Below are positions 4,974 through 55,230 of a stretch of DNA of 64,000 bases, piece by piece (within the stretch, counting starts at the first letter, position 1; every line of letters starts with the position of its first letter). The stretch spans positions 41,644,760-41,708,759 of the forward strand of contig OX344762.1 in the NCBI GenBank assembly GCA_947034895.1, read 5' to 3'. The position numbers were made by a program, and so were the translations under genes. A model generated the notes under the pieces. It saw only the letters and a program-made list of their open reading frames with translations, was not told the origin of the DNA and searched no databases. This stretch comes from Rhytidiadelphus loreus (Eukaryota; Streptophyta; Bryopsida; Hypnales; Hylocomiaceae).

Positions 4974-7900
4974 TTAAGCTGCAGCCACAGCAGCCGGAGC
5001 GCCACTACAAGCAGGAGCTTCCAGGCGCAAATAGTCGTACAAAACTCCAGTGAAGGGTCCCGTGGCTTTCCTCTGACGCAAGTAGAAGCTGTTCCACCCA
5101 ACTTGCAAAAGTCGAGAGTCCACCTCAATGGTCCACAGCCTGTGCAGTCCGTGAATGCTGTGGCGTGCAATAGCATTGTCTCTTCCGTATTGCATAGTGT
5201 CAAACACAGGTTTCCTGAAGTCGAATTTGTTCACAGATAACTGCAAAAGAAAAACAAACAAACATTGGTTTTAATGATGTATTGATCAACAAAAAACATG
5301 AAGTCTCTACGATACTTAAATACAGGCCAAAGAAGAAAAGAAAGTGGAGGCAATACCAGTTTAAATAATGGGAAAAAAACACACATATACAACATTCTTT
5401 AGTAATAGAACTGGAGTCTCTTTTTGTAAGACTAGCCAACAAATGTGAATTGCACCTCAACACATATCAAACTATCTCCCAACGAGTCCCAAGAGAAACT
5501 TACATACTTGTAGTTTAATAATAAGAACCATGCTCAAATGCTTATATGGATGATTTTTAGGTGTAGTTACCTTATCTTCCATTATTTTGAGAAAAAACAC
5601 ATTTCAAGCGTGGTGAAGAATGTTATGTTCACATGTCATGTAGTGGTGGTCTGTAATTACCTGAATGGCTGCACCGTTTGCGGCAGCAGTGGCGATTCGA
5701 AGCTTGTAAGGGCTGTTGCCAGTGTTGCAGACTTCAGGAAGCTCAAAGCGAACCTCCCAAGTCGCGGGTGTGAAGGAACCATCTGCCTCAAATCTGAAAC
5801 ACAAACCACCACCACCCTTGTTATTTTCAATCAACCAAAATTTTGATTACGCACTTTTTGCATTATGCGTGATTGGTTGGTTACATTCAAAAAATAGAAG
5901 GCTATTGCCAAGGAGTGTGGTGTAGTAGAAATGAATGAATGAATTCACAAAGGAAGAGGTACAGGGTTCAGTATTCAAGAATTTGATCAAAGTCCAAGCG
6001 AAAATAACGATTTTTGGATTTGGAATTCTTGGCTAACAAATAGCAGTGTCTACTACGTCCGAATAAGTGAACACCAAAAGCTCCCCTGCATTGAACCCTG
6101 GCATGGCCTGTTTACGAATTTCTGAGCCACTAATTCATGGAGGTTTTTTCATTTCATGAACTCACTGGATTGAGTGCAATAACCAAGGTAGTCCTCTTCA
6201 AAAGCATACACAACCCACAGAAAGTCCAGCATTTTGCTATCCAAAGGGTTGGCTTGCCTGTTGAGATGTGCATAAAACCAGTCTTTTCGCCAGTCACTTT
6301 GGCCAACTGTGTACACCAAATCTTGTGTAGGGTAGAGATCCGTGTACCGTTCCCACAAGCCATACTGACGCCACCTGCAGAAACAGTTAATTTCAGTCTA
6401 ATACTCTACATCTGGAACTTTATCATGACAGTTCAAAATTCATAGAAAACCCATCTCCCTTATGAAGCAGGAAATTTGGAAACCACGTGAGACACACTAA
6501 AGGGTGTTTTCTGCTCTTTAAATCTAGAAATTATACTTAGTGAAGATATACAATAGGATGGGTGATATTGTTTTTAGAAGAATTTCAAGGTGCGTTGTAT
6601 TCACACCAGTAGCAAGAATTACAATCATAGGGTGAACTAAATTTCTGAACAAAATATACACATAGCCCCCCATAAAATACCCTTGGCACATCTGGCCCAA
6701 AGAGGTTGTTTCCAAACCTATACGAGTTCACATAAATCACTAGAAAGCTTTAGGAAGGCAACAAAACGTACCAATAGAAAGAAGAAATCATACCTTACGA
6801 TAGAAGTATGTTTTGAAAGTGCTGTTATCAACTAGCGGACTTTCTACTTCTGTTCTTAGCTTGGACACTCAGGGATTAATGATTGTAATGGGGAAACTTG
6901 TAAGGCAAAAAAAAGCAAAAAGAAGAAGAGTTATTACTTTTCGGGGTGGTTGAGGAAGAGCTTGTTGACATATTTGGGATTAGCATCCGGCACAAAAAAA
7001 CCATTTGCAGTGCGGTCAGGAACCCCAATCTCCCATGCAGTAGGTCCGTCCCGAGGACTAGTGTATGTGATGTCCCCCATTTCAACCACCGCACCTGCCG
7101 CGTGCACAACTCACAAACTTGTTGACTCTTGCTTGAATGTGTGGCAACCAGCTCAACCAGCAGCAGGTAGTGACGTTAACCCATTTGGTATGGAATATAA
7201 ATGTAGACGTTGATTTCAGGTTTGCAAAAACGCAGCATTATTACTGAGATTCTTTCATTGACCCCTTGAAATAGTATTCAAGAGAATATCAAGAGCTGCA
7301 GGTTACAAACTGCACTGCTTTGTCCTAATAGTGTGTGTGACACTGATTTACCAAAGTCACACTATTTTGAATTAAGGCAGGATACAATATAATTACTGTA
7401 ATGTACCAATTTCCACAAAAACAAAATTTGTAGAGACGCTAATCAAGACTAACCTGGCTGTACATGAATGGGGCCGTTTTCAAATTTGAAGTCTCCGACA
7501 ACACCAGGAACCCATCCATAGAGGTCATACACTCCAGCACGAATACTTCGTATGCAAAAGTGTCCATTAGCATCAGCTTGAACCCAGAACTGGTAGCCCT
7601 GTACATCAAGTAGCACTGTTTATGTTACTGGCAAAATTTTCGCCTTCTGGCAAAATTTGAATAGGGAGTTTAAAAAGATTCCCTTTTGGTCAAAAAAAAC
7701 ATTTTTTATCGCCAAATAATGAATCACTTTTAAAGAAGTAGATGAAAATGAGTTTTACCCCCAAAATGGCTACAAGATGGATTTTGTTATTGCCATTCGA
7801 GAAACTTTCATATACTAAAAAAGAACACTGTCAAGTACTGTCATACGTCTGATTATAAATTAACAGCAGCTCGTTCGTTTGTAAGTAGGACTGATTCTTC

Positions 7901-10900
7901 ATGCTATTCTTCAATTTTGAAATTACAAAATCAATCATTAATACAAGGAGCCAGAAGAAAAACTATCGTGAGCTTGCAACACCATGACAGAGAAACAAGC
8001 TATCAAATAGTGTTACCTTACTCTCAGTTTCCCATGAACCCAGAGTGCCTGGAGACGCTAACCCCAAGAATGCGTACTTGCCTCCCCAAATGTACGGTGG
8101 TTGGAAACTGCAGCATAGAAGTATAACTCATGTTATTATCATGCCTGAAAATAGATGGAAAACTTGCAGATCTGGAGCAGTTCTCAGTAAAAGTAGACTA
8201 TTTCAAAAACATTAGGCAACGTCACAAGGAGATTGATCATTGGCAAGGCAAGACAAGTGTGATGCGATTCATTAGGAGAACTCCCAATGATTCATCTTGG
8301 GGGGCATTTCTTTCATCACCTGCTTGGAAGAAAAACCGTAAACCCTATGTCCCTTTTAGCCCACTACTTTCTCAACAATTTCAATGAATGGAATGGAAAT
8401 GTCTCCCCATGATTGACTTACTTGATTGCATCCCTCCATTACACTCTTGCCAGGATTTATGTACGAAAATCGCCAGGATTAGCGACTGAAAAGTCTAATT
8501 TTACTGAAACTGTTATTGAATTTGCATTCACTATTTTTTATTAAGAGAAAGCATGAGTTAAAAAGGCTAGGTGCTTTTACGGATCAGAAACAAGAAGCCG
8601 GCCAGAAACGGTGCCGCGTTCTGCAGCCTTTGGAAAGTCGGGTGAAGTAGGCCAGGAGTAGGGCCATGCCGCCTCTTCTGCTATTGCCTACAGCACAATC
8701 CATAGTAATGCAAATTAAGTATTATGCTAATGTAGATGGCAAAATTAACAAAAGCTATAATGTAAAGGAGACATACCAGGCATTAGTCGCCCAGGAATTC
8801 AACTAGGAGCGTTAAAAATTAATTACTAGAATCTGTTGCAAACTATTGTAGTCTAAGAAAAGAGCAGATTCACAAAGAAATGTATGCTCACTTGAGCCTT
8901 CGCATTCTCCCAAAGGGCAGGACATGGAGTGCCCACTGGTGCGCAATTGAGGTATATGAAGACAGGACCAAAGACTTTTTGCCAAGCTTCGCCTTCCTCA
9001 AAGTAAGAGATAATCTCGCTGCCAATATAATGACAACCGTGAAACACCTGCACACACACACACACACACAAAGTTCAGTGTATAAGAATGTCAGTGTTGT
9101 GAATCAGTGTGACCACTAAAGGACCAAGGATTCACGGCGTTATGATGATCAATTCGATTGATCATATTGTGAAAAAAATAACTCACACACGGGAAAATTT
9201 TAGATTAGCAGAATCAAAGAAGAGCAATGCATGTGTCGGTGAAAGAAAAGAAGTAAATTTAAATAGAATCAAGTTTCCATATGACCAACTCCAACGTGCT
9301 AGAAAAACTTAAAGTCCAACATTGGCCTTTCTGGTCTATGAAAGAGTTCATGTTTGAAGGCGAAGTTGCAGAACAAGGGCGTGTTATAATTTTCGTGTTT
9401 AAAAGAGAAGAAAAAAACTCACAGCTAGACATGTAGGGCCAACATGGGAAGTTAGGTTCTGCTTCGTGGGACCGCCATTCCGAAACTCGTTGCTGGGAGA
9501 GATGATCCAAAACCCCACCATGGGGTTGGCGCTCACCCAGCCATGCACTTTCATATCTTTGTTGTCCACCACGTACGCATACTTGTCGTCCACCTAGAAA
9601 TCGACAACCCTAAACCCAGTCAAAACGACCTCTACTAATTTTCATTATCGCACCAGTACTATTCCAAGAAATAATTCCAATCTTTTAACTTCTTCATAAA
9701 CGAGTGATCAGACAATGAAAGATTTAGAAACAAGAAAAATAATCCCCACAAGCAGTTCCACATTGACCAAGGACTCAGACTAGGTCAAAAAATGGTCAAA
9801 GAATGAGCAGTTTGACTGATCATATTGCGAAAGGTAGAACTGAGATGGCGACCCAATGTAACATCACCAGAATCAATGAAAAAATATTGCATGCGTTCAT
9901 AACAAATTTGGACAAAAAAAGTCTCCACATAACCTTCTCAAAACTGCTTAAAAATGAAAGCACATGAAATTTTAACGTACTTCGCCGCGAAGAGAAGGCT
10001 CGCAGGGATTGGTAAGGATATGAGCTTCGGGGTAGGCCAGTTGCTGGCACCTATTTGGAGTCAAGTCCTCAGGGCAAGGCATCAACCTCTGCTTGTTGTC
10101 TGCGACGGCCATGTAATGGAATCTTTGGGGTGTTCAGCAGGACACTTGATAATGAAAAAATACCAAAACACAGGAGAAATCACATACACTCCATCAATAG
10201 AAATTACTCCTGTAATCTGAATAAGTGAGAAGTCTATTATAATGCTAGTTTTGTTGTAATTCTGCATAGAAATTCTGCACAAGAAATACTGTGTAGACCA
10301 TTTTGCACCTGTCCTTTTGTAACTTGAACGTGATTCGTGTTTGATTCAGGTTGAAGGCAGGCAAGCCACTTGGTCGCTTGTAGATGCCGTAAGTATAGAA
10401 GCCTGAACTCCCTCGCATAAGCACAAATCTGTAGGCAAACAGGGGACGCGATAATTAACGTAGAGCAAGTTTACATTGCACAGGTTGAAGCAACAAGCTT
10501 GAGATTACAAGAATTCCTGCCACTTGATTAGTGCAATTTATCTTTTCTTAATGTGCCTTTCTTTGATTTGTTTGATATCACTATACAATAGTCCAAGTAA
10601 CATGAAGCAGAGGCTCTTACATAGCTCCAATGCGGCATGCTAAACATATTTGAGATAAAACATTTCAAGCTACCTCTTGGAGGTGGATTGGACGTTTATT
10701 TATATATTCAATGTGTCATGAATGCGATGGATTTAGTTTAAGCTTGATATCTCACCCCTAGTTGCACATGATGTTGGTTCAAAATTGACGTTGTTGCTTC
10801 AACCTCTGCAATCTAAAATGGTCTTAACAACCTCATAATTATTTGGAGTGAGCATGAAATGTAGGAGAAAGTATCAAAAATTGGCAAAGAATTCGTTAAC

Positions 10901-29857: not shown

Positions 29858-30117
29858 GTATGGTAATCCGCATTCTCAAATTGTAAACAGATTTAAACCC
29901 TACCATCTGCCGATCACCAAACCCAAATTCATCAACCCCACGAAGCTCCAGCACCAGCAAGATTCATGCCGGAATCGCCCCACCGCAGTATGGTAATCCA
30001 TATTCTCAAATTGTAAACAAATTTCAAACCCACCATTGCCGATCACCAAACCCTAATTCATCAACCCCCCGAAGCTCCAGCACCAGCACCAGCAAGATCC
30101 TTGCCTGAATCGCCCCA
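29858..30117. repeat. Tandem duplication of the ssSPT 3' end, 130-bp unit x2
   Basis: Two adjacent units start at GTATGGTAATCC (29858 and 29988). Both contain ATTCTCAAATTGTAAACA, GCCGATCACCAAACCC, ATTCATCAACCCC and GAAGCTCCAGCACCAGCA. The right unit includes the last 19 codons and the stop of the ssSPT gene (CDS end at 30061). The left unit is therefore a downstream, untranslated copy of that coding tail and its flank. Confidence 0.85.
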
Positions 30118-30450
30118 CCACGCCCACGCCACCAATCGTGCGCCCATGTGCTGCAAGTAGAGTCCGCTGTTGTACCCTACCAGAAAGAACAGCACAACAA
30201 AAACAGCGTTGAAGATGCATCTCTCCCACCAATCCAGCATGTAAAGCCCCGTCGTGACATTGTACAGAAACACCCACCGCTCCAGCTTCTGCGCCACGCG
30301 CGCGGGCCAGCGTCGCGGCACTTGGGGAGCTTGGTACCTCGCCATCGCTCTTGGACGACTCCTCTCCTCCAAAAATTCTCGTCCGGAGATGCTATCCCCA
30401 CTGGTGGCCTGGATGATGCCGTCATCGCTCGCAGAGGATGCAGCCGCCAT
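30061..30450 (-). CDS. Small subunit of serine palmitoyltransferase (ssSPT-like)
   Basis: ssSPT binds the LCB1/LCB2 heterodimer in the endoplasmic reticulum and strongly stimulates condensation of serine with palmitoyl-CoA, the first step of sphingolipid synthesis. The core at residues 57-99 carries the family signature: a basic amphipathic start (QKLERWVFLYNV), TTGLYMLDWWER, then one hydrophobic membrane segment (NAVFVVLFFLVGY) and a NSGLYL end. Characterised plant ssSPTs are only about 56 residues. This frame is 129 aa in one exon, with about 50 extra N-terminal residues and about 30 extra C-terminal residues rich in Gly/Ala. Translation could begin at Met36 instead. Assignment of the core is firm; the extensions are uncertain. 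The C-terminal coding tail is duplicated just downstream. Confidence 0.88.
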   Translation of the reverse strand: MAAASSASDDGIIQATSGDSISGREFLEERSRPRAMARYQAPQVPRRWPARVAQKLERWVFLYNVTTGLYMLDWWERCIFNAVFVVLFFLVGYNSGLYLQHMGARLVAWAWWGDSGKDLAGAGAGASGG

Positions 30451-31263
30451 CGTTTGCTGCGTTGCGTTGCGTCACGTCGTCGTCCTCTGCGGAACTTAAT
30501 CGTCGGCCATAACCGTCGTAAACACAAGCTGTGTCTGGCCCACCCCAGTCATTCCGTAGGATTCATACCCTGTTTCTGAAACCCTTGTTCTCCCACTCTC
30601 GGTCTATGCAAATTACCAATGCGTGTCGTGCTTGCTGCTGATAGAACAACTCCTCACCAGTTGACATTCCCTGTATTCATTCCTATGTTAGTTATTAATA
30701 GTATACTTGTGCTTGAGAGCGGCGGTTGCGAGACGGAGGGATAGAGTTGAATCTTGGAGGTACGGTATTGTAGGTAGGGCAGGGTTTTTCCATGCAACTG
30801 TGAATGTGGTGAGGACATGGACATACTATAAGGGACGAACATTCTGAGTTATGATGAGTATATGAGTTCTCCGTTGCGTTGCATGTGCTTCTTCGCTGTA
30901 TCTGTACTGTTGGGAACGTTTGATTGTCTGCGTTTTAGGTTTGCGTGTTCCTCGTTTCCCCTTCTGCTGCCCTTCTTTCAATTCCTGTACGCCTGCAAGA
31001 GTCGTCGTGAGATTCTTCAGTTTCTTTGTTAGAATCGCTTCGCTTGAGATGCAGACCGCTTGAGACTCTTGAGCTTTTTGTCTTGAACTTCGACAAATAA
31101 TAAGGGTTTGTGGTACATTTGGAGAGAGTTTTCCAATTCCAAGATTGATGGAATTGAGAATTTGGAGATAGAAAATTCTCATGTAATTGAAGCAACTGAT
31201 TGGCGATATCTCCGAAGGAGATTCAATTGGAGGCCGATTGATTGATTGATTGATTGGGCAGCC
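30451..31263. other. Region upstream of ssSPT and of the 31264 frame
   Basis: This is a moderately GC-balanced region between two divergently oriented reading frames, so it may hold both promoters. A (GATT)n tract lies at about 31238-31254. Several overlapping frames on the minus strand (30826-31195) resemble nothing I know. Confidence 0.35.
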
Positions 31264-38831: not shown

Positions 38832-40435
38832 ATGGGTCACCCAACTGTGAAGGTCGATGACATTGACTTTACTACCAAGATCACGCCGCCCGCTTCTTCG
38901 AGCACTCTTGACTTGATTGGCTATGGTAAGCTCTAAGTTTCACCCTCCTTTCCGATGCTCCTCTCCCTCATCTGCTCGGATTTGCAGGTAGAATGAATTC
39001 CCTGAAACCGTAATGTGAAGGATCTGGCTTGAATAGATCTCATATTGAATTGGTTTGGTTGTTGCTAAGTAAATATGGACGTAAACTACTCGAGGCCTTC
39101 GTATCGTTTGGAACTGTGTGGGATTAGTTACGAATCCAAGACATTCTTTATGAATGTCATCTTAGCATGTGGTAGCGTCGTTGGTCTTAAAGTTACAACT
39201 TCAATGACATTGAATGAAATTGTTAAGGAGTTGGGTGGCCTACATGCGAGAAGAATTTTTCCCTAGTGATTATAATTTCATTTTTAGGTCATGTCGTCAG
39301 TCCCACGCTTACGATGAGAGGTGTGATTTGCAGGCGGCACGGGGATGGAAATAGAGACGGTAGAAATCAAGTTCACCGCCATCGGCTTCTACGCAGAGGC
39401 CAGCGTCAAGGAGCACCTGCAGAAGTGGAAGGGGAAAGCCGCCAGCGAGCTTGTGGAAGACGACAGCGGCTTCCACAAGGAGCTCATCCAAGCGCCCGGG
39501 GGGAAATTGGTGCGGATCTCCATCATCAAGGGGATCAAGGGCCTGCCCTACGGCGGCTCCCTGCAGTCGTCCTTGAGGGACCGACTGGTCAATGACGATA
39601 AGTTCGAGGAGGAGGAAGAAGAGGCGCTGGAGAAGCTCGTGGAGTTTTTCCAGCCTCACAACTTGCCCAAGGGAGCCAATATTGTCTACTACTGGCCCAC
39701 TCCCGCCTCTGTCCAGGTATGCTCCTAAATCTGCTTATTATCCTACTCTCTAATATCACATTCTGGTATATGTTCTTGGGAAAAATCCACGAGTTGAGCG
39801 TATGTAGTTGGACGACTTTCACATATTTCGTTCTCGACACTTGTGTGATTGGAACTTTGTCTTGAACCTGTGACGTATGAGAGCTTTAAGTGTACTTGCT
39901 TTTCCTGAGAGCTGCTTGTACCAATTGAAGCTCTTCTTGCGGCACTAATGTGTCGCATCTATCAAATAGACCCACAACATGCTGTACTTTCGAACTGGTT
40001 GATAATTAGCTACTGGGTGAATCTCTTGAGAGAATCTCTATAGTAGGCTGTTGAGAGCTCTGCCAAAAAGATTGCTACCCCTCCTCTTTCTTCCATACAA
40101 GAGAAGCAGACTTTTTGGGAGGGCACTGTATATGGAGGATCATAGATTTAGAATCGGCTGTTTACCCTAAAGTGGCCAAGCTAGACATTGCCACTTTGGA
40201 AACAAATTATGGCACATATGTAAATTTGAACAGGAACCCAGATACTGTGGCTGATACTTTGTTTTGATTTTCCAATTTCCAGGTCTCTCTCTCTGAGGAA
40301 GCGAAAGTACCTGAGGAGGTAGCATACACTATCGAAGATGCCAATGTGGCCGAGGCTTTGTTGGATCTTTACTTGGGCGAGAATACCATCACCCCCTCCA
40401 CTCTTTCTTCGGTAGCGGAGGCCATTGCCGCATAA
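38832..40435 (+). CDS. CHIL: Chalcone-isomerase-like protein (type IV, CHIL), three exons
   Basis: CHIL proteins share the chalcone isomerase fold but do not cyclise chalcone. They bind chalcone synthase and raise its accuracy in flavonoid synthesis in the cytosol. Exons 38832-38925, 39334-39716 and 40283-40435 join to 209 aa, the usual length. Visible landmarks are VEIKFTAIGFYAE, LQKWKGK, GIKGLPYG, the acidic stretch FEEEEEEALEKLVEFFQ and the C-terminal ITPSTLSSVAEAIA. The last two are type IV features. The catalytic arginine of true isomerases (RGLEI motif) aligns with Thr in TGMEI, and the active-site Asn of the QYSEKVSEN-type segment aligns with Ser. The active-site Tyr (PYG) remains. A fatty-acid-binding type III CHI is less likely because no plastid transit peptide is present. 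Confidence 0.92.
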
Positions 40436-41477: not shown

Positions 41478-41880
41478 CATTTGCTTTGAAGCGACCACTC
41501 AAACAACGTTGATGTCGTGGTTAAACCCTAAACCCTGAAATGTACAAACGCATCAGAAACTAAAAATAGTGCAGAAATTGCAACACTTCAAGGATCTTCA
41601 GCAACGACAACCTCCCCTTCAACGTCTTCGTCAAAAATTAATTCACAGCAGGCCTCCCCATCCTCCGCGCAGACAGATCATTTGCTTTGAAGCGACCACT
41701 CAAACAACGTTGACATTGTGGTTTAAGCCCTAAACCCAGGTCTGTACACACGCAGCATAACTTATACTAAAATCAGTGAAAAAATTGCAACCCTTCAAGG
41801 ATCTTCAGGCACGACTACCTCCCCTTCCGCGTCTTCGTAACAGAATTCTTTCACAGCAGGCCTCCCCATCCTCCGCAGAC
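41478..41880. repeat. Tandem duplication of the LpxD 3' end, about 201-bp unit x2
   Basis: The unit starts CATTTGCTTTGAAGCGACCACTC at 41478 and again at 41679. Both units carry a telomere-like CCCTAAACCC word, ATTGCAAC.CTTCAAGGATCTTCAG, ACCTCCCCTTC and CACAGCAGGCCTCCCCATCCTCCGC. The right unit includes the real LpxD stop and last codons (from 41795). The left unit (about 41585-41680) is a non-coding copy of those codons with point changes and indels. Confidence 0.85.
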
Positions 41881-42787
41881 CGACCATTTGCTTCCGCCAC
41901 TCGCGAGCTGGAACAGCAGGAAAGCCCGCGTAATCGCCCGGTGTGTCAATGTTGGCCATGACCCCACTCTTGGCTGCAATTCTCACCCTGGAGGTCACTT
42001 TGACATGATCAGAGACTCCGGCCTTGCCTCCGATCACCACGTAGTCTCCAATTGTACACGATCCCGCAATGCCAACTTGACCACACAACATGCACCCGCG
42101 GCCGATCACCGCATTGTGCCCGATTTGCACCAGGTTGTCAATCTTGGTGTAATCCCCGATGAGTGTATCCCGCCAGCTTCCGCGATCGATACACGTATTC
42201 GCCCCAATCTCGACATGGTTCCCAATTTGCACTCGCAGCAGCTGAGGCTTCTTCACAATCTCTCCAGTAGGATTCTCCAGGAAGCCGAACCCGTCTTGGC
42301 CGACGCAAACGCCGGGATGCAAAGTGCACGACGCTCCGATTGAGCAGTTCTGGAGGACGACATTGTAGCCTAAAGTGGTGGAGACGCCAACAGACACACC
42401 TGGGCCTACAATAGAGCCAGCGCAAATGCGCGCATTCGCTCCCACTTGCGCAGTGGACTCGACGAACGCCCCGTGCTCCACCACTGCCGAGATGTGAACG
42501 TCGGCTTGCGAGTGCACTGTGCCGCCCCCGCTACGCCACTTCACGTACTCGCTCCCGTCGGAATCGCAACGAATCCCCTGCACAGTCGTGCTCTGCCGTC
42601 GAAGAGATGAAACCCTAACCCTAATTCTGGAGCGGGAGACTCTTGCAACAAAACCTTGATGAGTGACGAAATTTGAGAATGCTCGAGTGGAAACTGCTAC
42701 TGTTGCTGTTGCTGAGGGATGCGTGTAGAGCGCCTGCCGAATGAGCGCCGTCACTCTTGACATTGCAAGCAGCTCACGTTCACTCAC
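41795..42787 (-). CDS. LPXD: LpxD-like UDP-3-O-acylglucosamine N-acyltransferase, single exon
   Basis: LpxD adds the N-linked hydroxyacyl chain in the lipid A (Raetz) pathway. Plants keep mitochondrial homologues that make lipid A-like molecules. The 330-aa frame has an Arg/Ser/Ala-rich N-terminus (to about residue 70) fitting a mitochondrial presequence. A left-handed beta-helix of hexapeptide repeats follows (about 95-290), with landmarks [32 protein letters not shown] and [10 protein letters not shown]. His224 in QIGHN matches the catalytic His239 of the E. coli enzyme. The N-terminal uridine-binding domain of bacterial LpxD is largely missing, as in plant homologues. Met9 (42763) may be the real start. 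The gene is uninterrupted, unlike the multi-exon neighbours. Its 3' end is duplicated in tandem downstream. Confidence 0.93.
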
Positions 42788-43359
42788 ACCATCCCTAATT
42801 GCGTTTACGGCATCTTCAACACAATCTCAAGCTGCAGAAAAAACCCTCCTAGTCTATTTCGACCCCCGGGATCCTCAGGCTGGGTTTGCTTCTTCACTGC
42901 CAAGAGATTTCGCTACTTCCTATCACAGCAACAAGAATCATCGAAAACAACAACTATTGCAAACCGAGAATCACAATGTCGAGCAATTTCTGCAGATGCC
43001 ATCTGAGTCACCGACGAGAGGCTCACTTGAGTGAGAGAAAGTAGATCACTGCTTGAAAAATTGCCATTGCATAATGCTTACCTTGAACATTCTTGAAAGA
43101 AGCTCCTAACTACTGACACCGTCTTCTAATTCCAGGAGGAATCAGGGCACGCAAGATGCTCGGAACGTCCGAGATCTTCTTTGAGATCGAATCGTTGACA
43201 GACATCTTGAGTTCCAGACTTTTGAAGGAATCCTTTGACATCGAATCATTTTTTGACTGTTGCATTTCTTGATGGAATCAGGAACTATGTTTTTTGCAAA
43301 CAGGAAGTGAAGAACAAGAATTTAATTTTCAAAAACAAAAACAAGACTCTTTCTGTGTA
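42788..43359. other. Upstream region of LpxD
   Basis: Probable promoter and 5' UTR of the minus-strand LpxD gene (42788-43050 is relatively GC-rich). A plus-strand frame at 42741-43034 is antisense to the LpxD start and has no recognisable domain. The rest is AT-rich up to the Tc1-type element. Confidence 0.45.
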
Positions 43360-48300: not shown

Positions 48301-50189
48301 GTTGGTTCCAATATTTTTGGAAAGTTTATGTGCAAAGTTTGAGTGGTCAAGTGTGCTTGGAAGTGGTCAAATGTGCGATGAAAGAGTAACTTAATTCCTT
48401 GTTTGATAAATAATGGGAGTTAATATACTCGGTTGGAGTGTTCATTAATTGGGGTGGAAAGGCGAGTAACATGATTGAGTGAGTATGTCTGTATGCATAA
48501 TGAATGGCGAAGTATATTATTGACAAGCTATAAAATTCTATGACTGCAAGAGGTAGAGGTCTAAAAGTTAAGTAATAGCAAATGACTATATATAATGGCA
48601 ACTAAAGATAACTTAAATCAGCAAGTGGATATTGAATGTTGTAATAGTAGATTAATCTAATTTAGTTTAGATAGAACTTATTGACCAAATTAAGTAGGTG
48701 AAGATTTCACAAAATAAACTCTAGAAGCTTGGTGAAAATTAAATATGTAGAAGTGTAAGACCCCACAATTTGATTGGATAGGGGAAATTGGGATTGCCAC
48801 CGAAAGCAGAGTTAGATTCATGATATCAATGGTGTATATTCTAGTGTGTGCTTGGTCCAAACTATGAATTATAGAATGCATTTTCCAAAGTTGCCACAGA
48901 CAACCATGGTTATGCTTAGGAAATCTATAAAGGCTAACTAAACTAATTGAGACAAAAGAACTAGCCTAGTTTTAGTGTTTGTTGGACTTAAATTAAATTG
49001 TATAGAAATTATTAACTAGTGCCATTCTATTTTGAAAATACTATTTAGCTTGTTGGTTGCATAAAGAATTAAAGGGTACACAAGTCATAGGGTGATGAGA
49101 ATAAATGAGACAAGGCAAATTGGCTATTTAGAAGTTTGGAAAGTTGAACAAATCACAGCATGGTTGTGAAATTAGTGCGTGGACAAGTTATAGAGGTTGT
49201 TGTGTAAGTCAAGCAAGTGGATGAACCTCAAATAAATTGCCAAGTGAGCCAACTAACATACCATGCTTGCATTAGTTGGAGACAATTTGCCATAGTTTAG
49301 GAATTTGATTGACTATCCTAAATTGGCAATTAGGCTAGTAATAAATAGACAAAGAAAACTTGCTAAATGGTAAAAAGAATCACAATAATTAAGGAATATA
49401 TTATATTATATATTATACTATATAACTTGGCATTTAATTATGCAATAGTTCATTTGCCTATTCAAATCGAGGTCATGCCCATCAATTTACCAACCCTTAT
49501 TATCTACTAGGCAAGATTGGTACGTTATACATTCGTCAATAGCATTAAGGGATGGACTATTAAATTATGGGAATAAGAGTGATATACATTGTGTAATTGT
49601 AACCTTGAAACATTGAACCTCTAAAAGAAAGCTGAAAATCATTCAAATCTACAAAGCAAGTGACTTTAGTTATACAAATGGGAGACAAATTGACCTTTTC
49701 TCTGTGATAACGCCCCTATTTCTTGTGGTCCGTGCTTGTGGTCTTAGGATTTTTGAGGTAGAACAAATCGAGACTACAAAAGTACTTTCAATATAATTCG
49801 GCCCGCAGTCACATCCAATGTAATTGACGCAATCTATTGTAGATAAACAATGTCACTTGGAACAAATCTCTTCACTTGTGGTTAGTAGCCTACTCCCCAA
49901 ATGGTGGCATATCGCAAAGTGTCTTGATGGTGCACACTTTCTAGATTTTCCAACGCCATAGGCATCACTCTCTAAAACAACCTTGCATTGTAAGTGCTTC
50001 CACTTATAAATCTCAATCATCCATCTTATTAATCACTATCTCCAAGTCTCTCCTAAGAGAAACTGGAAACACAAGTTCTCACCCATGTATTAATAGGAAA
50101 TAATGAGAAAAATTAGCTAATGAAGCCTACTTTCTAAAACAATAGCCCATATCTTACCAAGGCAATTACAAGTCTCAATTTCCATTATG
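45363..50189. other. Gene-poor AT-rich region
   Basis: I found no supportable gene. Notable simple sequence includes (AAATTTC)n-like words at 46945-46970 and an (AT)n run with AAAATAAAA words at 47905-47952. A less AT-rich patch at 46790-47560 carries only short frames on both strands with no recognised protein. Old element debris is likely but could not be bounded. Confidence 0.45.
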
Positions 50190-50192
50190 TCC

Positions 50193-50570
50193 TCATTGCA
50201 AACTATATTTCCAAAGCCCCCTCTTGACCATTTGCACTATGTGCTTGACCAAACCATCTACCTCAAGGTGATCTTGAGATGTAGTCTTGTAATCAATGTA
50301 TTTTTCTTCAAAAAGAGTTTGAAACTCACCCAAAAATTCTTTGCCTTGATCAATTAGCACCTCTATTGGTACTCCAAATCTACTCAAGATTTTATTTAGA
50401 AATGCATAAGTAGCTTCCTCATTGAATTTTTTAGGCAATGCCACAAGCTCAATCCACTTAGAAAAGTATTCAATCATCACAAGCAAATACTTGTTTTATT
50501 GCTTCATAAGTGGTAGTAGCCCTTCAAAGTGCAAACTCCATTGATATTCCAAGCCCATAATTGGCAATGA
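50193..50570 (-). pseudogene. Ty3/gypsy integrase core, inactive
   Basis: Integrase inserts retrotransposon DNA into the genome. The remnant reads GLEYQWSLHFEG, LLVMIEYFSKWIELVALP, FGVPIEVLIDQGKEF and TTSQDHLEVDGLVKH. The second catalytic Asp (IDQG) remains. The first is His (LHFEG where Ty3 integrases have D-EG), and the final Glu position appears as Lys in LVKH. One stop lies between the first two segments. The open part is 97 codons (50193-50486). Confidence 0.85.
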
Positions 50571-50592
50571 ATGTAATTGTAGCATAGTTGCA

Positions 50593-51545
50593 TTAACCCC
50601 TAAATGCTCAAACTGCGTTTTTTGACAACATAGCGATTTTGGGCAGCTCACTACAAATGGAGTTTTTATTTTTTTTCTTTGAAATTTTCACACAGCATGT
50701 GTTCGAGGAGTAGCTTTGAGGCCCAACAATTTTCATAACTTTTGACTACATGGTTCAAAAGTTATTGTATAATATGTTGTTTTCAATGCTCGGCGGGCAG
50801 TCCGGGCAGCAAAAAAAACTTCTTGAAAAATCATTTTTTTAAAAAATTAAAATTTGAAATTGGTTCTCTAGATCTATGTATACATGAAAATGTTTGAATC
50901 ATTCCATTTGGATAAATGAGATGAAAGTTATGAGAGTTTGAGTTTGCGGGTAGTTTAAAGGTAGTTATGGATTCTCTACTCTAAAATAAACTTTGAAGTC
51001 TTTTATTTAACTCAATTTTCAATATTTTTGAAAACAAATTGAAAAAATGGATTCAGATTGTTTATCACAATATTCCAACCATTGGGATTGGAGTTTTTCA
51101 ATTCCAAAAATAAATTATTAACAATTTGGTATTTTGAATCATTTTTTACTCCTTTCTACTTATTGTTTTTTTTCTATATGTTCTACAACTCCAAATGATG
51201 TGAAATTTTTCAAGCATGTAGCCAACTTGATTTTCACAATTAATCCAAAGAGTAACAACCATTTTGAGCATTTTTGTATATAAATATGACCTTCTGAAGC
51301 GCAGCTGCCCGTTTTTTGGCAGGGTCAAAAAATGAATTTTAGTCATTTCAAACACTAATATCTTGCAATCTACAAGGTGGAAAATTCTGAAATTTTTTCC
51401 ACATCTTTTCAAGATAGTTAACTACAAGATCCTACGGTTACATGTTTCCAAAAATTCTTTAAAGAAAATAAATTGGATCTTGCACTAGAAATGGCAGTTT
51501 TGGAGCACTTTTGTGAAAACATAGTCAAATTCATTTAGGGGTTAA
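50593..51545 (-). mobile_element. TTAA-bounded non-autonomous element, copy 3, nested in the Ty3 element
   Basis: This 953-bp copy reads TTAACCCCTAAATGC at one end and TTTAGGGGTTAA at the other. It is inverted relative to copies 1, 2 and 4, and it interrupts the retroelement between the RNase H/spacer region and the integrase core. The interior matches copy 2 along its length. An 88-codon minus-strand frame at 51146-51412 corresponds to the 70-codon frame in copy 2. No transposase. Confidence 0.8.
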
Positions 51546-51588: not shown

Positions 51589-51792
51589 CTATTCAGTATC
51601 TCCACTTGCATACCCTTCCACCAATAATGGTTTGTAAAAGGATGTGAAACCTCCAAACTTCAATTGCCCCAAATCTTTATTCACATGCACAACAATCATC
51701 CTCTGATCTTGTAACTTGATAATGAAACCACAAATTTCCTCCCATCTTGTAACTTCTTTAGCAAGAGTCTGAGCAAGAGAGTCCCCTCCCAT
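51589..51792 (-). pseudogene. Ty3 pol spacer fragment (between RNase H and integrase)
   Basis: A 67-codon frame (for example AKEVTRWEEICGFI and GFTSFYKPLLVEGYASGDTE) lies where the end of the RNase H module and the H2C2 region are expected. The match to Ty3 pol is by position and general feel only; no catalytic motif is visible. Confidence 0.4.
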
Positions 51793-52315
51793 TCAAACCT
51801 TTTGGCTCTTTGTAGGATCCAATCTTTCTCCTTTATGGTTGCATTATTTAGCCTCCAATTTTTCACTCTTCAAGTAATTCAGGATTGGTTCATCCTTATA
51901 AATGTCTTTCGCACCCCTAGACTCCTCACTCCCTTCTTCATAAGCTACAACATTAGTGATGTCTCCATTCATCTCCAAATACTAAGAAAGGTTGAAGCAT
52001 ACCACCTCAACACTTCCTCTTCATCTTCACTAACATGCCACCAAGACACCATAGAGTTTACTTGATGTAGACATGGATTGTGATTCAATCCATTTGCTTC
52101 CATATTAACCATTTTTGTTCTATGTACAACCTTAAAATCATACTCTTATAGCATGAGTGCCCATCTTGCAAGCTTTCTCATAAGCTTGTTTGAATCCATT
52201 AGCAACTTAAGTGGTTAGTAATCTATCACCAACAAAACTCATTCCCATATAAGTAGCACTGAAAGTGAGCAATAGCCCACATTACTGCCAAACATTGTCT
52301 TTGATATGAACTATA

Positions 52316-52501
52316 TTAGACCTTGATATTATTGTTTGATATGCTAATGTAATCCACAACAAATTTTTTTCCCTCATCATCCTTTTGAGTGAGAATAACT
52401 CCAATGCCTAAAGTGCACCAATCAATATGCAATTGGTATGAATGATTTGGAATTGGTTGTTGTAGAATAGGTGTTGTGGTCAATTTGACCTTAAGTTCCA
52501 T
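52316..52501 (-). pseudogene. Ty3/gypsy RNase H fragment
   Basis: The frame begins ELKVKLTTTPILQQP and continues YQLHIDWCTLGIGVILTQ and EGKKFVVDYIS. This is the typical RT-connection to RNase H transition of Ty3/gypsy pol, in which the Asp of the first RNase H motif (HIDW) is present. It is truncated after the first strand pair by a stop. Confidence 0.85.
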
Positions 52502-52639
52502 AAATGTTATTTCTTGCTCATTTCATATTAGCATTTTCAAGGGCTTAGCTATATGGCTAAATGATGCCAAAAACTTGCTATAATAATTTTTCAATTAAAA
52601 AAAACCTTAGAGCTTGCTAACATCCTTCGATTGTGGAAT

Positions 52640-53390
52640 ATTGGCCATGGCCATGGCTCCTATTTTGAATTTCTGCACTCCTAGGCCCTCTACATTTAAA
52701 TCGTGTATCCAAGATACTCAACTTTAGAGTAGAAAAAATTACATTTGTTTGGATGTAACTTCAACTTGTGCTCAGACAATTGCTTAAAATGGCTTATAAA
52801 TGCTTTTGTGGATCTTCCTGCTTTTACTAAAGACAATGATGACATCAATATAGCATGTGGCAAATGACAACCCTACTAATATCTAATCCATCACTTTCTA
52901 AAATTTTGCAAATACATTCTTCAATCCAAATGGAAGAAACTTCTATTGATAAAGTTGATCTTTACCAAACTTGTCAATTCTCCAAAAGGCGATTTTGTGT
53001 CTATATCATAAATAAGTGGTAGTTCAACCTTAGATCTAATGTACTAATTAAAGACTTTAAAGTTCCTAAAATCATCAATGATTTCTTATGGAATTGGCAT
53101 TGCATACTTATTAATTAGACTTTGTATGTTTATTAATAGACCTATAAATTCCACACATGTGTTTTTTAGTCCAAATCCCATATACAATTTTCTTACAAGT
53201 CATCATTGTCATTGATGCATATTCTTCACTAGATAGCTCAATCAACCAGTCAACCTTGCATCCAACAATTCTTTGGTCCTTGCCTTCATCATCACCCTCT
53301 CTACTTTATTATGCCTCAGTATTAGGCTTGCAAAAAATTTGAACATCATTTGTGAGATCAATGCAAACCTCTTGGCCCTTAAAGACCCCC
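52640..53390 (-). pseudogene. Ty3/gypsy reverse transcriptase, inactive
   Basis: Reverse transcriptase copies element RNA into DNA. In broken frames one can read FKGQEVCIDLTNDVQIFCKP, KKHMCGIYRSINKHTKSN, the catalytic box CYIDVIIVFSK (52838-52854), then LSEHKLKLHPNKCNFF and KVEYLGYTI. The catalytic YxDD is YIDV, so the second Asp is lost. Multiple stops and frameshifts separate the segments. Confidence 0.88.
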
Positions 53391-53899
53391 AAATCTATTA
53401 ACCTAAATGCAAAACAACTCAAACAATCTCTTAGGAACTTTTTGCTCTTTTCGTCACTTCACTTCTCCTTCAAGTCCAACATTTGGTTTGCAATTTTCAC
53501 TATTTATTGGTAGCTTCACCTCCTATCAATGGGCAATAGTTTCCTTGGTTGCTAGGAAATATTGTAGGCCCTAGAGTCCTTAGCCTTCGTGCTTGCCATA
53601 CCAAATGCATTTCCATTATCCATTGCAATGAAGCCTCAGTCGGGTGAAAATAACTTCTCCATCCACTCTTCTAAATAAATTCCTCTCATGGCCTTATAAC
53701 TCCTCCATGGTACCCGCCTTGAGTTTTTTGGACCCTTAATTTGAAAACTAATTTCTCCAATTTCTTTCATAGATGAATTAGAAGTTGTTTGTCGTCCCTA
53801 GCCACCTCAATCACCATTCTGATTTGAGGTAGGCTCTGCAATTGACTCTACCATGCATAATATAAAGACATGGTAGTTGCAAAGGCCTACATTTGTTGT

Positions 53900-54860
53900 T
53901 TCTCTGTTGTAGCAATAGCCATAATCCACGTCAAGATGTTCAAGTCCATCACTTGACCCAACATCACTTTTTGCTCTTCGGGGATGGATCCATCCAATAG
54001 CCATATTGTTCTCGTTAAAATCCCATTGACCTCTCCCTTTCATCAACATTGAGTTCACTAGTCGTATATTCATCACTACTAGTATCCAAAATAGTACATA
54101 GGCTATAGCCTCCAAATATAAAAGATTTGAGAAAACTAACAAAAGTTGGGAATGCCCATCATGACTCTCTACTCTTGTTCACAATGGCATAGAGTGGCTT
54201 ATCATCCCACCTAACATGTTGTGTATCCAGATTATCCTACACAAATAAATTCGGTGGTTATTATAAGGGATTGTACATTGCTTGCAAAACAATGGTAGGA
54301 ACAAGATTAGTCCACCAAACTCAAGCTCAATATGCTTGTGAGTCAACTTTTGCAGCATCCATAAATACCAATTGGCTACAATATATCTTAGAAGTGCTTA
54401 AGGTTCTCTAAATTACGCCTCCAAGACTTTGAAATCATGGGCACATTTTTGATGATATATGTACCCCGGTCCATGTGTCTACATCACTTGCAAAGTATGC
54501 AAAATATGAATCATCTCATTAAACAAACCACTCCAATTGTCTTTAAATCCATTTTGGTTATCTTCCATAGACAACCTTTAGCAAGGCCACCCTACCATAA
54601 CCAAATCCACCAGACCCAATGCATACAAATGACCATCACTGACCAACACAATGTCAAAGGGCAATGTTGTGAAGGCATTTTTCATGGCTTCACAAGGTAG
54701 CAATGTTAGATATCTCCTTTGCAACTTTTGAATGTGGTGAATAGCCACCTTCATGGCCACATCAAAATAGTGAAATACTTGTGGACCTTGATAATTTCTA
54801 ATTTGCAAAATCGCCACTAAACCCACGGCCATACCTCCAAATAACCAACAAACAAATGCC
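53900..54860 (-). pseudogene. Cytosine-5 DNA methyltransferase-like domain inside the Ty3 element, inactive
   Basis: C5-DNA methyltransferases transfer a methyl group from S-adenosylmethionine to cytosine. In order along the minus strand: motif I-like LFGGMAVGLVAIL (54846 downward); HYFDVAMKVAIHH (cofactor-binding Asp region); FTTLPFDIVLVSDGHL; and catalytic motif IV DLVMVGWPC (54581-54607). A stop follows exactly where the usual Gln would be. Next come GFKDNWSGLFNEMIHIL, a degraded motif VI region (PGYIYHQK instead of YILENV) and DERERSMGF (54018-54044). Last is a motif X-like LGQVMDLN (53938-53961). Several frameshifts and stops break it. It sits between the Gag zinc knuckle and reverse transcriptase on the same strand, so it was part of the element's polyprotein rather than a host gene. 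Confidence 0.82.
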
Positions 54861-55188
54861 CTTTTGCAAAAGCCTCCAAGCAATTGGAGTAGTCAAAATC
54901 CGTGATGATTGACCACCAACTCCATTGCTCCTAATGTCTTTAGATGGACAAGGTGGATCTTGTCACACTTTAACCGTGAGCATGTACGTACTCATGCTCT
55001 CTTCATGAACTAGAATGTCTAGTAGTTTGGGTTGGAAAGTCCATTCTTCTAATATGTCTACCATTCCAACCTTAGCAAATTGCACATAGTGACTATAGCG
55101 TGTTGCCCATCTCCAACTTACCATCCCAAGGTTAGAGTCTTTTTTTTTGTCCTTCCCTTTGGATCTTAATTCTAGATGTAGATCCCAA

Positions 55189-55230
55189 CACCTAGTATTT
55201 GGGTGTGTCGGAGAACTGTAGTTGAAACAA
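55189..55230 (-). pseudogene. Gag CCHC zinc knuckle remnant
   Basis: The minus-strand frame reads YCFNYSSPTHPNTRCW. The spacing is C-x2-[C]-x4-H-x4-C with the second Cys replaced by Tyr. Zinc knuckles in Gag bind element RNA. It is followed by a basic stretch (RSKGKDKKK) and then the methyltransferase region. Confidence 0.75.

Follow-up and report, generated by a model that had tools for sequence, protein, structure and literature searches.

Which retrotransposons are known to carry a DNA methyltransferase of their own? The closest described system is KnitGypsy-Dnmt3 of Klebsormidium nitens, a Gypsy element whose capture of a DNMT3 gene is called an independent acquisition in the available part of de Mendoza et al. 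2018 (PMC5890265); SymbioDIRS-Dnmt3 of Symbiodinium, treated in the same part of that article, is likewise a retrotransposon with a Dnmt3 domain. The accessible part of a 2019 paper states that such transposons are absent from land plants. Fungal Ty3-type elements can have an in-frame stop codon that separates Gag from Pol (PMC10085805). Here we describe a 64,000-nucleotide stretch of the genome of the moss Rhytidiadelphus loreus (contig OX344762.1, positions 41,644,760 to 41,708,759; hereafter the window), whose minus strand carries the remains of a Ty3-type element with a methyltransferase. Judged from its sequence, this copy is a dead, old member of a Ty3-type family in which a DNMT3-type enzyme is a regular domain. 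An initial annotation of the window had noted that capture of such enzymes is reported from algal and protist retrotransposons; that much was already known, but the capture is not confined to them, as liverwort and moss records (below) also contain it.

The relic and its siblings

What remains of the enzyme in the window? Comparison by tblastn with the 331-residue open domain of a sibling copy elsewhere in the genome (L015) places a broken methyltransferase at 53893 to 54844 on the minus strand. It covers residues 13-326 of that domain in four pieces and three frames (residues 13-142, 141-160, 155-285, and 299-326, running from 54844 down to 53893), with a combined E of 1e-47; the best of 50 shuffles of 3-base blocks reached E 0.2, and the reversed sequence gave no methyltransferase match. 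The motifs first read there—LFGGMAVGL, DLVMVGWPC, DERERSMGF, and LGQVMDLN—are all present in the minus-strand translation, a TAA stop directly follows DLVMVGWPC, and the motif VI that had been described as degraded reads IKNVP. With several stops and three frames in the methyltransferase alone, the copy is dead, as the initial annotation had held.

The other parts of the element lie on the same strand. At 55188 to 55229 is a relic of the second Gag CCHC knuckle (C-x2-Y-x4-H-x4-C, then W) with the spacing seen in the L015 Gag; its second Cys has become Tyr, which agrees with the one lost Cys claimed before, and it has no Pfam match. Protease gave no tblastn match in the window, where the gap between knuckle and enzyme is only ~0.35 kb. 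Past the enzyme come a broken reverse transcriptase (RT) and RNase H at 52101 to 53383 (tblastn with a sibling RT-RNase H, E 2e-82; Pfam RT_RNaseH_2, 7e-13 at 52316-52522), an integrase N-terminal piece at 51597 to 51809 (tblastn E 4e-5) that stands ~1 kb from the remainder, the integrase core at 50031 to 50594 (tblastn E 5e-70; Pfam rve, 1.5e-9 at 50193-50495), and the start of the integrase C-terminal tail at 49783 to 49986 (tblastn E 1e-26; L015 tail residues 17-84). The window showed no sign of the PHD finger found in siblings. Because its RT is at most 47% identical to those of the siblings, we place the window copy on an old side branch.

Is the arrangement repeated elsewhere in the genome? 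A 104-aa piece of the relic (54578-54892) matches 57 other places (58 rows including the window; 407 Mb searched). The closest is 61% identical (C2:86459026) and the remainder show 31-51% identity within the match; many lie in open frames, of which the longest has 1163 aa. A genome search with PF00145 returned 69 rows above the cut-off, mostly at places matched by the relic piece. Among the PF00145 matches, those on three small contigs (C397, C174, and C80) are unbroken over much of the domain and lie in single open frames; they look like bacterial DNA that contaminates the assembly.

Twenty of the 57 places, read at length (~10 kb each), form our sibling set. It contains two subfamilies, A (n = 10) and B (n = 9), which are ~66% alike in RT and 43% alike in the methyltransferase; one further sibling (L013) and the window copy are more distant. 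Pfam analysis of pieces from six siblings (L015, L016, L026, L028, L029, and L030) recovered CCHC, aspartic protease (some matches below the Pfam cut-off), DNA_methylase, RVT_1, RNase H, H2C2, rve, and a PHD finger, the last in L015, L016, and L029. Knuckle, protease, and enzyme share a single open frame in L026, as do protease and enzyme in L030. The better-kept copies thus read as a first open reading frame (ORF1) of Gag-CCHC-protease-methyltransferase, a UAG, and, in the same frame, ORF2 of RT-RNase H-integrase-PHD finger. Gag and protease followed by RT, RNase H, and a DDE integrase (Pfam in siblings; tblastn for the order in the window) assign the family to Ty3/Gypsy by its Pol. The initial annotation had put the enzyme between Gag and Pol and suggested looking for siblings with gag, methyltransferase, and RT in one ORF. 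The enzyme does lie upstream of RT and that order was found, but in the siblings protease precedes the enzyme, which closes the Gag-protease ORF, and the UAG parts ORF1 from ORF2.

How regularly does the enzyme accompany this RT? With the L026 RT as query, 86 of 660 candidates in the genome were scored, giving 88 rows; 10 second-fragment rows were dropped and 78 kept. These loci split into 51 at 50-100% identity to the L026 RT (the family) and 27 at 35-38% (other Ty3). At 42 of the 51 family loci, and at none of the 27 others, the 6 kb upstream contain a same-strand methyltransferase match, a result that substantiates the claim of a methyltransferase built into a Ty3-type element and excludes the alternative that siblings always lack it. 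The same count bears on whether the neighborhood is due to chance—a host methyltransferase gene at, or inserted beside, a Ty3 relic. Such an origin would suit the relic taken by itself: neither the 104-aa piece nor eight other relic pieces match PF00145 at E ≤ 1, the very outcome that the initial annotation had named as counting against its proposal, and one that we attribute to decay. The sibling count in effect excludes a chance neighborhood, which the single open frames of L026 and L030 also contradict, and we give it a negligible probability. The architecture and the enzyme's identity we regard as close to certain.

The stop codon between enzyme and RT

What lies between the enzyme and RT? 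A TAG stands 333 nt (subfamily A) or 390 nt (subfamily B) past the matched methyltransferase domain, and the RT match begins ~180 nt further on. Enzyme and RT share a frame in 14 of the 17 copies having both (the exceptions are L016, L022, and L031). Sixteen of the 20 siblings have the 13-mer TAGCAACCAAAGG (in RNA letters, UAG CAA CCA AAG G) unaltered and in frame with the enzyme; another copy, L027, has it in frame with one change. When 15-nt blocks were compared between a subfamily A and a subfamily B copy (L015 and L030), the motif block agreed in 14 letters and the surrounding blocks in 1-10. Even the relic keeps 11 of the 13 letters, as TAGCAACCAAGGA at 53542 to 53554 on the minus strand, in frame with RT 180 nt downstream. 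This is the sole match at two or fewer changes in the 64 kb, both strands included; 154 of 20,000 shuffles of the 518-nt linker hold such a match in any frame. All 13 long proteins ending past the enzyme that were counted stop 79-129 aa after the domain (there were 15 such proteins; P0179 and P0244, the latter named Haematococcus, were left out).

The fixed stop context after the enzyme leads us to propose programmed readthrough of the UAG, which this conservation makes very probable. CAA CCA fits CARYYA, the readthrough context of tobamoviruses. The term CARYYA does not occur in the available part of PMC5009743. Could RT instead be made through an internal start or splicing, the UAG never being read through and its context being left over from common descent? 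Subfamilies A and B do share one ancestral element. The 13 letters, however, are the only strongly conserved stretch of the compared linker, and both the common frame of enzyme and RT in most copies and the persistence of the context in the relic speak against that explanation, which we consider unlikely. Readthrough taken jointly with the architecture and the enzyme is, in our judgment, quite probable.

The enzyme, its selection, and its possible role

To which methyltransferases is the enzyme related? The L015 domain matches PF00145 at E 1e-14. The enzyme's best Protein Data Bank matches both by sequence and by fold are DNMT3A/DNMT3B, and DNMT2 is a far weaker match than DNMT3 (1e-7 versus 3e-25). 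From sequence and predicted fold, the sibling enzyme is a DNMT3-type cytosine-5 methyltransferase. Across 200 aligned domains, the catalytic Cys and the Glu of ENV are conserved at 95-100%. The motif order in L015 and L030 is unpermuted (I, IV, VI, VIII, ERERAMGF, GQAMDLN); we therefore rejected a DRM identity, which needs the permuted order of VI-X before I-IV that the host's DRM-like genes L046 and L047 show. Host genes considered as native DNMT3 candidates were likewise rejected, two being DRM and one MET1 by eye. With animal DNMT3A/DNMT3B the enzyme shares its predicted catalytic fold and motif order, but identity is only 20-24%, motif IV is GSPCND there and GWPCQG here, and here the domain sits within a retrotransposon polyprotein.

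The domain had been held to have once been under selection, and ratios of nonsynonymous to synonymous substitution (dN/dS) below 1 among siblings support this, at ~0.2 for the methyltransferase in subfamily B; across subfamilies A versus B, dN/dS is not usable, as dS is saturated. Within subfamily B the median dS is 0.27 in the methyltransferase and 0.09 in RT-RNase H, as if parts had been swapped between lineages.

Besides the missing PF00145 match in the relic, several observations weigh against our reading of the family. At nine of the 51 family RT loci, no methyltransferase match lies close by. Six of these have a same-strand match 13-96 kb upstream, a distance that nested insertions could explain, and three have none. 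The stop context is absent from L013 and L017 and is both changed by one letter and out of frame in L031. Methyltransferase dN/dS is higher in subfamily A, at 0.39 (RT, 0.29), and pairwise values in subfamily B, dead copies included, span 0.12-1.25. Observed/expected CpG is 0.22 in the relic element versus 0.56 in the window, a depletion indistinguishable from that caused by methylation by the host's own enzymes. CpG depletion as a sign of self-methylation was accordingly rejected: values in the flanks vary between 0.23 and 1.37, and the host has enzymes of its own.

Why would a parasite that is silenced by host DNA methylation carry a silencing enzyme itself? In the mechanism we propose, most ribosomes would halt at the UAG and yield Gag-protease-methyltransferase, and a few would read through to the full polyprotein. 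Because the enzyme lies ahead of a leaky UAG, we infer that it would be made in Gag-like amounts and packaged. It might then methylate the new complementary DNA (cDNA) in the particle or at integration, and the integrase-borne PHD finger might read chromatin at the insertion site. As the enzyme's main role, self-methylation of cDNA is a tentative suggestion. Somewhat more doubtful is a role in restraint or disguise, in which new copies would be silenced or marked as self at once, limiting harm or keeping the cDNA from being taken for foreign DNA. The roles put forward in the initial annotation (limiting harm, evading host control, or marking insertion sites) are likewise conjectural. Retention of the domain in both subfamilies, despite only 43% likeness within it, and in algal relatives fits that role, and the available part of de Mendoza et al. 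(PMC5890265) proposes escape from foreign-DNA recognition, or cDNA protection; the CpG figures, for their part, cannot separate self-methylation from host methylation. A third option is a DNMT2-like activity on RNA or tRNA, for example on genomic RNA or primer tRNA, rather than on DNA. Retrotransposon enzymes handle RNA in the particle, and the same article, in the part available, raises RNA methylation for the LINE type and reports that KnitGypsy-Dnmt3 showed no DNA activity in yeast, a result its authors call inconclusive. The much poorer match to DNMT2 argues against RNA as the substrate, and we find it improbable. With ~50 family loci, several long open frames, one copy with terminal A repeats 99.2% alike (below), and liverwort and moss relatives, the question should be testable in bryophytes.

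Element ends, relatives, and known systems

How does the element end? The nine copies with both ends found start with TGTC and end with GACA, and eight are flanked by a 4-bp target duplication (L023 has none); TG..CA termini and a short duplication are what a Ty3/Gypsy element should show. Ordinary pairs of long terminal repeats (LTRs) were absent from single 10-kb stretches; upstream pieces then showed split-repeat and repeat-less forms. L021 and L032 have the layout A-coding-B-A-B, with repeats A (377) and B (118) and the junction GACA-GT-TGTC in both; in L021, read with its upstream piece L035, the split repeats lie at 8256-8868. The right end of L025 agrees with this layout. The A repeats are 96.6% (L021) and 99.2% (L032) alike and the B repeats 98.3% (L021) and, with gaps, 93.5% (L032), so that L032 looks young by A and not by B. 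The remaining seven of the nine copies, among them every subfamily A copy with both ends (five), end after one B without terminal repeats. Recombination could have removed the repeats, and the repeat-less copies may be direct products or B-B recombinants. A DIRS element was considered and rejected: the integrase is PF00665 rve with H2C2, not a tyrosine recombinase, and target duplications are present. The L017 copy (subfamily A) is followed by tandem, satellite-like repeats that span at least 3 kb (6639-9901 in element orientation), with self-matches at a shift of ~147 bases and more.

Elsewhere in the window, Pfam identified a chalcone-flavanone isomerase-like reading frame at 39327 to 39728 on the plus strand (9e-22) and, on the minus strand, a serine palmitoyltransferase small-subunit-like reading frame at 30061 to 30471 (7e-17) and one with hexapeptide transferase repeats at 41795 to 42826 (3e-21).

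Where else does the family occur? Three protein searches gave 22, 119, and 155 hits (of the last, 120 were listed), and 258 proteins were compared. Named relatives among the matches include Calypogeia, Sphagnum, Marchantia, Riccia, and Closterium; protease or RT parts stand in the same record in P0134 (Pfam), in P0110, and weakly in P0115 (both phmmer). P0053, a named bacterial genome bin, groups with the land-type rows and is probably contamination. Algal-type relatives named among the matches listed are Monoraphidium, Haematococcus, and Cymbomonas, together with metagenome records; no record named Klebsormidium is among the protein matches listed. Among the 258 proteins, the order RT-methyltransferase-integrase holds in all 90 records having the three domains, and the methyltransferase precedes RT in four records. 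A PHD finger follows integrase in P0020, P0021, and P0168 (Pfam), and PF00628 appears in the precomputed domain annotation of many rows among the matches listed. Glu (WECQDLS) takes the place of the Pro of the catalytic Pro-Cys, with the Cys kept, in 50 of the 84 algal-type records that have every domain, those three among them. To our knowledge, this Pro is nearly invariant in cytosine-5 methyltransferases.

Trees of RT (40 of 96 rows, the land-type ones all from R. loreus) and of the methyltransferase (61 of 200 rows), unrooted and built by a quick method with SH-aLRT support only, each set the land-type rows apart from the algal-type ones (support 100 and 100; 98 and 99); P0120 and P0092 fall outside both groups in the methyltransferase tree. 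Two histories fit these trees: either a DNMT3 gene was captured once, long ago, and the domain later changed its place in the polyprotein, or related DNMT3 genes were captured on two occasions. A broader reading, which we offer as a whole only as speculation, is that a single DNMT3 capture in a green-plant ancestor founded a Ty3-type family joining a methylation writer to a PHD reader. In chlorophytes it would have spread with the enzyme placed after RNase H and ahead of integrase. In streptophytes, as far as the bryophytes, it would have spread with the enzyme shifted to the Gag ORF, ahead of a UAG read through in the tobamovirus manner, and this enzyme would be made in Gag-like amounts, packaged, and used to methylate every new cDNA. 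The substrate of the DDE integrase would be a circle-like junction of B and A (GACA-GT-TGTC), leaving many insertions without LTR pairs.

How does the family compare with what has been described? In the literature searched, whose coverage leaves out most subscription papers, nothing described elements of this kind in land plants or bryophytes, and there was no account of an enzyme before a fixed UAG context, of a PHD finger with such elements, or of two domain orders. Relative to that literature, three features appear to be new: an enzyme that ends the Gag-protease ORF before a fixed stop, the liverwort and moss relatives, and the algal order of RNase H, enzyme, and integrase. The algal-type elements share a Ty3-type RT and integrase, a related methyltransferase, and a PHD finger past integrase with the family in R. 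loreus, but have one ORF (RT-RNase H-methyltransferase-integrase-PHD) and a motif IV that is mostly WECQDLS, versus WPCQG here. Tj1, in the available part of PMC10085805, likewise has its coding region split by an in-frame stop whose context is strictly conserved; there, however, a UGA stands between Gag and a protease-first Pol, whereas here UAG CAA CCA follows Gag-protease-methyltransferase. SymbioDIRS-Dnmt3, as the available part of PMC5890265 describes it, has a tyrosine recombinase, unlike the DDE integrase and target-site duplications found here. The same part of that article gives KnitGypsy-Dnmt3 Gypsy domains and an unrearranged Dnmt3-type enzyme under purifying selection, as in this family, and its Fig. 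4 legend describes a DIRS-like repeat arrangement, as in L021 and L032; the word PHD is absent from the available main text on that element, and the likeness drawn here follows its published description. In KnitGypsy-Dnmt3, the same source indicates, the enzyme is part of the Pol polyprotein ORF, whereas here it closes ORF1 before a conserved UAG. Placement before a probably leaky stop predicts both the amount of enzyme and its destination, which a Pol-embedded enzyme does not.
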